This document shows positions 40,086 through 41,760 of a stretch of 64,000 nt of DNA, piece after piece. The notes below the pieces were generated by a model that was not told the origin of the DNA, searched no databases, and saw nothing but the letters and a program-made list of their open reading frames with translations. Position numbers and translations under genes: made by a program. How positions within the stretch are numbered: position 1 is the stretch's first letter; every line of letters begins with the position of its first letter. The stretch lies in the NCBI RefSeq assembly GCF_003601975.1, contig NZ_QZWZ01000010.1, forward strand, positions 62,001 through 126,000. Direction: 5' to 3'. Origin of the DNA: Mesorhizobium waimense. GTDB lineage: Bacteria; Pseudomonadota; Alphaproteobacteria; Rhizobiales; Rhizobiaceae.

Positions 40086-40319
40086 CGTTCAATATCCGTA
40101 TACGGTCATGCGTAGATTGTTCGGTGCCGGAAATTTTACAACCGGGGGATACGATTTTTATTGATTGTGAAATCCTTCGCTCTTATATCGCGCTTGCCCA
40201 AAGTCGCACGTGCCTGTGGGTGTCCGCCGATCCTCGAATGGTGAGGGCAATCGGTAAGGTAACTGGAGCTAACCCCTCCAGTCGGTTTAGCGGCCAACCG
40301 CCAGACCGAGGACACCTTG

Positions 40320-40626
40320 AAGCAACGACGGTGCGGGCCTTTCTGGTGTTCTGCCGGTTGTCCAAAGACCGGGGTTACTGAAGAGGCACACCTTCATTGC
40401 CGGCAGTGCGGACGGGTCTCCCATCCAAGCCAAGGCAGACAAAGCGAACCGAGGCCGGGCAAGGCCAAGGTTCACCGCCGCGAGACGGCGCTTCATGGTT
40501 CCGGGGTCTCCACCGGCTGGTTCCATGGATTTCCGTCCCGCCTTTGTCCACCGCGTGTTCGCGAGGCCGACAGCCCGCGTCCCGCAGCCTTACTGCGCGC
40601 CGCAAGGCGCTGATGGAGAGACCCCG
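40320..40626 (+). promoter_or_regulatory. Structured leader of the decarboxylase gene (speF-type motif) with two anti-SD copies
   Basis: The gap upstream of the ornithine/lysine decarboxylase is over 500 bases and rich in hairpins: CCGGT/ACCGG (40353-40371), GAACC/GGTTC (40446-40473) and CGCCG/CGGCG (40476-40490). CGGGGTCTC (40502-40510) is the perfect nine-base complement of GAGACCCCG (40618-40626) over the ribosome site. A second copy, GGGTCTC (40414-40420), also pairs with it. This fits a translation-controlling leader. A conserved speF RNA motif is known upstream of these genes in alphaproteobacteria; I propose this is it. Bounds are approximate. Confidence 0.6.
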
Positions 40627-41760
40627 ATGGCTACCCAGCGCATCCTTGACTTCCTCGCCACTCGACGTCCGAACGGCCCGTGCCTCGTCGTCGACCTCGA
40701 TGTCGTGCGCGACAATTTCCGCGCCTTCGAGAAGGCGCTGCCCGATTCGAAAATCTACTATGCGGTGAAAGCAAACCCGGCGCCGGAAATCCTGCGCCTC
40801 CTTGCTACGATGGGCTCGTCCTTCGACACCGCTTCCGTTGCCGAAGTCGAGATGGCGATGGACGCCGGTGCGCCGGCGGACCGCATCTCCTTCGGCAACA
40901 CCATTAAGAAGGAGCGTGACATCGCACGCGCCTACCAGCTCGGCATTCGCCTGTTCGCCGTCGACTGCGTCGAGGAAGTCGAGAAGATAGCCCGCGTCGC
41001 TCCCGGCTCGCGCGTGTTCTGCCGCGTGCTGACCGACGGCGAGGGCGCCGAATGGCCGCTGTCGCGTAAGTTCGGCTGCGTGCCGGCGATGGCGGTCGAC
41101 GTGCTGCGCCATGCCAAGGCGCTCGGCCTCGACGCCTATGGCGTGTCGTTCCATGTCGGCTCGCAGCAGACCGACCTGACCGCGTGGGACCGCGCGCTGG
41201 GCGACGCCAAAAAGGTGTTCGCGACGCTTGCCGACGAAGGCATCGTCTTGAAGATGGTCAATATGGGCGGTGGCTTCCCGACCCGCTACCTGAAGGACGT
41301 GCCGGTGGCGCAGGCTTATGGTCAGGCGATCTTCTCGGCGCTGCGCAAGCATTTCGGCAATGCGCTGCCCGAGACCATCATCGAGCCGGGCCGCGGCATG
41401 GTCGGCAATGCCGGCGTCATCAAGTCGGAAGTCGTGCTGATCTCGAAGAAGGCCGACAACGACAATGTGCGCTGGGTGTTCCTCGACATCGGCAAGTTCG
41501 GCGGTCTGGCCGAGACGATGGACGAGGCGATCCGCTACCCGATCGTGACCGCGCATGACGGCACCGAGACCGCGCCTTGCGTGCTCGCCGGCCCGACCTG
41601 CGATTCGGCCGACGTGATGTACGAGAAGACGCCGTATCCGCTGCCCCTGTCGCTGACAATCGGTGACGAGGTGCTGATCGAAGGCACCGGCGCCTACACG
41701 ACGACCTATGCCTCGGTCGCCTTCAACGGCTTCGAGCCGCTCCGATCCTACGTGATCTGA
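40627..41760 (+). CDS. Ornithine/lysine decarboxylase, alanine-racemase fold (group IV)
   Basis: The 377-residue protein has the PLP Lys motif YYAVKANPAPEIL (Lys near 43), GVSFHVGSQQ, the glycine loop NMGGGFPTRY, EPGRGMVGNAG and the intersubunit Cys motif GPTCDSADVM. It matches the eukaryote-like ODC/LDC group. It makes putrescine (and perhaps cadaverine), feeding homospermidine synthase, whose gene is at 15223. GGAGAG precedes the ATG at 40627. The upstream frame from 40495 is part of the structured leader, not coding. A GNAT gene follows. Confidence 0.92.
   Translation: MATQRILDFLATRRPNGPCLVVDLDVVRDNFRAFEKALPDSKIYYAVKANPAPEILRLLATMGSSFDTASVAEVEMAMDAGAPADRISFGNTIKKERDIARAYQLGIRLFAVDCVEEVEKIARVAPGSRVFCRVLTDGEGAEWPLSRKFGCVPAMAVDVLRHAKALGLDAYGVSFHVGSQQTDLTAWDRALGDAKKVFATLADEGIVLKMVNMGGGFPTRYLKDVPVAQAYGQAIFSALRKHFGNALPETIIEPGRGMVGNAGVIKSEVVLISKKADNDNVRWVFLDIGKFGGLAETMDEAIRYPIVTAHDGTETAPCVLAGPTCDSADVMYEKTPYPLPLSLTIGDEVLIEGTGAYTTTYASVAFNGFEPLRSYVI

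Follow-up and report, generated by a model that had tools for sequence, protein, structure and literature searches.

Within the 64,000-nucleotide stretch of Mesorhizobium waimense DNA that was analysed (contig NZ_QZWZ01000010.1, positions 62,001 to 126,000; hereafter the window), we have identified an ornithine decarboxylase gene preceded by a leader in which two Rfam families adjoin (Table 1). The protein exceeds the cut-offs of both Orn_Arg_deC_N and Orn_DAP_Arg_deC in Pfam, and against NCBIfam no model scores above its own cut-off. It is 80% identical to the odc2 product of S. meliloti Ak57, annotated as an ornithine/lysine decarboxylase, whose leader is present in our comparison set (L222). 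According to the available part of PMC13293326, virtually all putrescine of S. meliloti is made by the enzyme whose gene this RNA precedes. Covariance models place ar45 (RF02347) at 40196-40342 with 161.3 bits (threshold 40) and speF (RF00518) at 40352-40498 with 87 bits (gathering threshold 37), both 5' of the decarboxylase gene and each with this one match in the 8.15 Mb genome. A preliminary description, made from the sequence alone, had taken the region for a decarboxylase leader with a speF motif and had called for the Rfam search, which confirms it. Promoter-like boxes end 7 bases before the first conserved base of the leader, GCCC at 40196, and a strict sigma-70 scan found no promoter. 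The start codon is the ATG at 40627-40629.

Table 1. Features of the ornithine decarboxylase leader and gene, by position in the window
Feature	Position	Strand	Basis
Promoter-like boxes TTGATT, 16 bases, TTATAT	40161-40188	+	Read from sequence
ar45 domain (RF02347), 5' part of leader	40196-40342	+	161.3 bits; Rfam pairing when folded alone
Shared strand S, closing ar45 or pairing with speF core 40376-40400; contains T-rich GGGCCTTTCTGG	40322-40348	+	
Hairpin H1, TCCA in loop	40352-40374	+	TCCA conservation near ar45 end
speF core strand, alternative partner of S	40376-40400	+	Full-length fold, triplet complement, speF match
Mini-hairpin GGA-C-GGG-TCT-CCC-A-TCC, start-open state	40410-40426	+	Constrained fold; local fold against shuffles
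Anti-Shine-Dalgarno strand, containing the second strand of the preliminary description	40414-40425	+	12-bp helix; own-versus-other tests
GACAAAG, closing helix of the 3' domain with CTTTGTC 40542-40548	40438-40444	+	RNAalifold (121 leaders), window fold
Hairpin H3, loop 40505-40516, stem CCGG:CTGG	40492-40529	+	Stem covaries in two groups
Ribosome site GATGGAGAGACCCCG, target of the anti-Shine-Dalgarno strand	40612-40626	+	Sequence, duplex, window fold
Ornithine decarboxylase gene, 377 residues	40627-41760	+	Pfam domains

The two families occur together well beyond this genome. In 289 genomes sampled evenly across the class, speF was found in 12 and ar45 in 12, with both in 11, and in all 11 the gap from the end of ar45 to the start of speF is 7-9 bases; the twelfth ar45 match is weak (29.5 bits). 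Within the order, speF matched 205 of 397 genomes, and within the family 218 of 257. The decarboxylase lies downstream of the leader at 219 of 221 loci, 11 of which were counted twice within the same genome, and at all 106 named loci with enough sequence among the matches listed. The set of 208 leaders was compiled after removal of the 11 duplicate ar45-match loci, and start codons were placed by tblastn and the nearest start rather than by annotation. The RNAalifold consensus used 121 leaders, excluding ten named loci and any that lacked the core pattern. The link between ar45 and speF is not new, since the available text of the 2005 study (PMC1273637) lets speF begin close to the transcription start and describes a stem with a branched insertion, which fits ar45, and the part of a 2008 survey at hand (PMC2573895) lists “smrC45 (speF)” and remarks on possible independent transcription. 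A separate ar45 RNA has in fact been described, in the accessible passages of the respective reports, as a 148-base species in S. meliloti (PMC2873474) and beside a leader of >700 bases in Bartonella (PMC7717549).

Some individual loci depart from this arrangement. L112 (genome G812, 247-550) is one of the two loci with no decarboxylase downstream; immediately 3' of its ar45 and speF lies the acetyltransferase gene that normally comes next after the decarboxylase, which seems to have been lost from between. Viral contig IMGVR_UViG_3300047524_000011 (L344) carries ar45 at 1513-1661 on the minus strand (167.5 bits) and, next to it, four tRNA genes; speF did not reach its threshold there, and the sequence after ar45 resembles speF only faintly. 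An ar45 kept on its own is hinted at; alternatively, the sequence may come from the host at the margin of a prophage. A search for its relatives gave no match among 50,697 phage records and no second viral contig. Very short ar45-like domains lacking the branched insertion, with 35 bases from GCCC to the GCAACGACG strand, were seen in L195 and L214 and are possibly a minimal 5' domain. The ar45 3' end pattern also occurs, among the matches listed, in a metagenome bin titled Candidatus Kuenenia stuttgartiensis (L273), non-alphaproteobacterial by name, perhaps from a mis-binned contig. The 5' strand of ar45 hardly varies among leaders, and in the window it contains a perfect palindrome, GCACGTGC at 40207-40214.

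Folded alone, ar45 takes the pairing of its Rfam model, in which its 3' end, GCAACGACG..GGGC..TTT, is joined to its 5' strand; in the fold of the full-length leader that 3' end is paired with ACTGAAGAGGC..CACCTTCATTGC of the speF core instead. The latter pairing fits the bulged stem-loop of the 2005 study, compared by the verbal description in its available text (PMC1273637). Moreover, the triplet after CGAC is GGT, GTA, GGA or GAA, and 202 of 206 leaders carry its complement in the core loop (the core pattern is missing from 2 of the 208), against a mean of 123.9 and a maximum of 141 in shuffles, a control that leaves relatedness in. In 198 of 201 leaders, 10-11 of the 11 positions of the T-rich strand pair with core bases. 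Because of this core pairing, conservation of the T-rich strand does not prove a terminator; across the 208 leaders the longest T-run is six in 71, five in 15, four in 1, three in 118 and two in 3, and a T-run terminator scan of the window found none. Leader comparison and computed folds together support two partners for the ar45 3' strand (40322-40348), namely the ar45 5' strand and the speF core, the second of which covaries. Strand S, shared in this way, could couple the formation of a short ar45 RNA to translation. The window fold also contains an outer helix GCACGTGCC:GGCAGTGC joining the leader 5' end to the core; it is nearly invariant, has uncompensated breaks in L008 and L012, and was set aside as speculation only.

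Regarding the start site, the preliminary description had proposed a translation switch, plausibly polyamine-sensing, in which two strands compete for the ribosome site, a first one, CGGGGTCTC at 40502-40510, complementary to GAGACCCCG at 40618-40626, and a second one, GGGTCTC at 40414-40420. The letters are right in both cases and both complements are perfect. The two strands behave very differently in the fold of 40195-40665. In the minimum-energy structure 40414-40425 pairs with 40612-40624 through 12 bp and one bulge, and in the ensemble the second strand has 6.99 of 7 expected pairs with its target, against 1.6e-6 expected pairs for the first. Extended with bulges, the second strand forms a 15-pair duplex of -28.3 kcal/mol with the start region, and the core pairs less strongly with each of the other 130 putative starts in 284 kb. 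When the ribosome site is forced single-stranded, the 40414-40425 strand closes a mini-hairpin instead (GGA 40410-40412 with TCC 40424-40426, GGG with CCC). In 123 of 125 leaders this local fold is more favourable than that of shuffled sequence. Opening the ribosome site has a computed cost of 13.7 kcal/mol, so the computed fold is mostly closed. Complementing the second strand in silico abolishes the core pairing and leaves the site still mostly paired elsewhere (unpaired 0.01-0.30), and complementing the first leaves start-site pairing unchanged.

In order to compare species, leaders were placed by anchors and the pairing of each segment with its own ribosome site was set against its pairing with the sites of dissimilar species; the window scan, segment map, permutation and fold swap used 125 non-redundant of 207 leaders. 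Over 107 windows of 12 bases, z exceeded 4 only at +4, +7 and +10 after GTGCGG (4.4, 5.0 and 4.2; next best windows 3.2 and 3.1), and these three windows cover 40416-40433, overlapping the second strand. A map of 848 segment pairs has its maximum (z 5.8) at the cell of the second strand and the start site, and one further cell above 4 (z 4.5), taken as a shorter-range pair. Pairing of 21 core bases with the 24 bases upstream of the start was 1.49 kcal/mol stronger for the own site, a difference reached in 0 of 2000 permutations, and only 10 of 125 leaders fell in their own best 5% with this segment. Most of the signal comes from the loop and CCC with the Shine-Dalgarno part (z 2.8), less from the flank with the pre-Shine-Dalgarno bases (z 1.3) and little from the 5' arm with the spacer (z 0.6).

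Sister pairs, 77-100 of them depending on the segment, gave a similar picture. With the 21-base segment, 60 of 99 pairs were better, 36 worse and 3 tied (P 0.0019), the controls being 39/32 (better/worse) upstream and 45/49 downstream; the 11-base core segment was not significant (P 0.054). When segment folds were swapped, the own site had 6.27 expected pairs with the core against 3.43 for swapped sites and was better in 83 of 125 leaders (P 3.6e-8). Further leaders were collected from named genomes through the ar45 3' end only. Among the matches listed these amounted to 119 loci, of which 13 were without decarboxylase (incomplete, <=320 bases), 13 were identical to earlier leaders and 93 were usable; 25 of the usable ones were near earlier leaders, and 46 non-redundant ones entered the test. 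Among these listed matches the own site was again better in 30 of 46 (4.85 against 2.58 expected pairs, P 0.0018; duplex version P 0.016). In 42 of 125 leaders and 36 of 99 sister pairs, and among the matches listed in 16 of 46 further leaders, the own site had no advantage; the 18 leaders closest to the window gave no significant signal by themselves (P 0.18). Matched changes can be read directly in single cases, such as TTATTCCC with GGGAATAA in L065 against GATATTCCC with GGGAATATC in L056, or GGGTTCTCC with GGAGAACCC in L038; in the S. meliloti odc2 leader the core strand is TTATTCCC and its match at the ribosome site GGGGAATA. As judged from this comparison of sequences, the results suggest that the second strand, not the first, acts as anti-Shine-Dalgarno, with a moderate effect.

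The first strand fared otherwise. It overlaps the stem and loop of H3, a stretch to which the available 2005 text (PMC1273637) assigns no structure, and its nine-base match is only mildly unusual, since 4000 rounds of dinucleotide shuffling of the leader gave 62 sequences with a 9-mer complementary to some 9-mer of -20 to +3. All nine pairs of its register, G-U counted, are kept in 3 of 45 close relatives. In its favour, only one of 131 putative start sites gives a 22-base segment of H3 a stronger duplex than the decarboxylase start does. As a species-specific anti-Shine-Dalgarno element the H3 loop was not supported, with an own-versus-other percentile of 0.500, i.e. no signal (120 non-redundant of 202 leaders), and 40 better, 48 worse and 3 tied sister pairs (P 0.67). 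The H1 loop was not supported either (percentile 0.484 in the same test; 51 better and 42 worse sister pairs, P 0.059). The H3 stem itself covaries around TCCA, at pairs -5:+5 to -8:+8 and -11:+11 to -13:+13 in the leaders with an interrupted T stretch and at -2:+3 to -7:+8 in the T5-6 group. H3 was first picked by stem score, which is circular for covariation, and was then rechecked using sequence alone, whereupon -7:+7 equalled the best shuffle, -3:+4 fell below it and the other eleven pairs exceeded it. Part of the TCCA invariance of H3 exists by construction, as H3 was located via TCCA; a sequence-only search found GTCTCCA in 127 and some form of TCCA in 203 of 208 leaders. In H1, TCCA lies <=50 bases from the ar45 end in 208 of 208.

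Support from related leaders, which the preliminary description had asked for as a check of both pairings, is found for the second strand and not for the first. The idea of a translation switch survives in altered form, with the second strand as anti-Shine-Dalgarno and its own mini-hairpin, rather than the first strand, as the competitor. The idea was to be abandoned if neither a speF match nor support for either strand appeared; it is retained, since a speF match is present and related leaders support one strand. The strand 40414-40425 can enter two conserved pairings that rule each other out, one of which is with the ribosome site (moderate effect), and is best read as choosing between the mini-hairpin, with the start open, and the 12-bp helix with 40612-40624, with the start closed.

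We consider, with a probability of about 0.6, that ar45 and speF together make up a single continuous regulatory leader RNA, which controls translation of the ornithine decarboxylase through this core-strand switch. The early transcript would take the closed ar45 fold, from which a short ar45 RNA may arise by termination or processing. As transcription continues, strand S would move from ar45 to the speF core, and the state of the core would then decide between mini-hairpin and anti-Shine-Dalgarno helix, a choice that may be biased by a polyamine-related signal or a bound factor. Perhaps the switch has two stages, where S decides a premature 3' end, releasing a trans-acting Hfq-bound ar45, and the core anti-Shine-Dalgarno strand then sets translation, with a polyamine such as homospermidine involved; this extended version we regard as rather unlikely.

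Control of the leader by a trans-acting protein or small RNA on the TCCA loops of H1 and H3, the RNA itself being no sensor, is a doubtful alternative, and we know of no factor that binds these loops. TCCA does lie in the loops of two hairpins, no ligand was found according to the available text of the 2005 study (PMC1273637), and Hfq co-immunoprecipitation of S. meliloti ar45 is cited in the accessible part of PMC7717549. Alone, however, such a factor leaves the signal between core and ribosome site unexplained; it could act alongside the switch. It is quite improbable that this pairing is real and sets a constant low level of translation, with ar45 as a separate sRNA and the promoter merely shared. 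The large computed opening cost, the separate ar45 RNAs of S. meliloti (PMC2873474) and Bartonella (PMC7717549), taken from the portions of these reports available, and the viral contig with ar45 and no speF match would agree with it, whereas conservation of both mini-hairpin and anti-Shine-Dalgarno helix on one strand, as well as covariation of the ar45 3' strand with the speF core, speak against it.

The competition of 40414-40420 and 40502-40510 for one start site, as originally proposed, draws on two exact complements in the window and on the strong H3 duplex, and with its H3 partner giving no own-versus-other signal, essentially unpaired with the start site in the ensemble and rarely kept in register by close relatives, it has become very improbable. 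In enterobacteria, a speF leader peptide senses ornithine. Comparable control here could use the open frames that traverse the GC-rich leader, yet the 3' half shows many length changes among 45 close relatives and its conservation tracks stems and loops, which makes this explanation hardly credible.

In translational riboswitches, an anti-Shine-Dalgarno strand chooses a local hairpin or the ribosome site, and the same choice by one strand is predicted here, except that the strand lies ~200 bases before the start codon and no ligand is known. As given in the available text of the 2005 study (PMC1273637), ornithine, lysine, diaminopimelate, putrescine, cadaverine and spermidine were not bound, and homospermidine is absent from the compounds which that text lists as tested. 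In most rhizobia, homospermidine and putrescine are the only soluble polyamines (PMC13293326, in the part available). We rejected the idea that the 2005 construct (-400 to +3) lacked the 5' strand, since the leaders of three Agrobacterium-like genomes measure 400, 405 and 407 bases and the construct was thus nearly complete; Agrobacterium-like is our own assignment, from a telomere-resolvase gene (PF16684) in 3 of 36 genomes.

The RNA described here shares with speF (RF00518), as far as the 2005 text at hand goes (PMC1273637), its sequence, its place before ornithine decarboxylase, the stem with branched insertion and the following ~80 conserved bases described as a bulged stem-loop. That text gives the last 150 bases no structure and offers no mechanism, and the anti-Shine-Dalgarno strand, mini-hairpin and H3 are added here. 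Likewise, 40196-40342 matches the ar45 sRNA family (RF02347; Smr45C) with 161 bits; in the available part of PMC7717549 ar45 is an independent, possibly trans-acting sRNA, whereas here it forms the 5' part of a leader, and speF provides a second partner for its 3' strand. The Salmonella speF control, in the accessible portion of PMC6386406, also involves an ornithine decarboxylase leader with alternative conformations, and differs, judged by these models only, in that RF00518 and RF02347 have no match in 14 control genomes. No publication assigning an anti-Shine-Dalgarno strand to the speF leader was found in the literature searched, which was mainly open-access.

Finally, speF, an orphan among regulatory RNAs since 2005, gains a testable mechanism from the proposed strand choice. 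Placing the anti-Shine-Dalgarno strand, its rival mini-hairpin and strand S yields exact compensatory mutations and probing positions. Our analysis further suggests that what Rfam holds as an “sRNA” and as a “leader” belong to a single RNA, as two pieces whose pairings exclude one another. If the two-stage switch is true, it would represent a new riboswitch class whose terminated product itself regulates.
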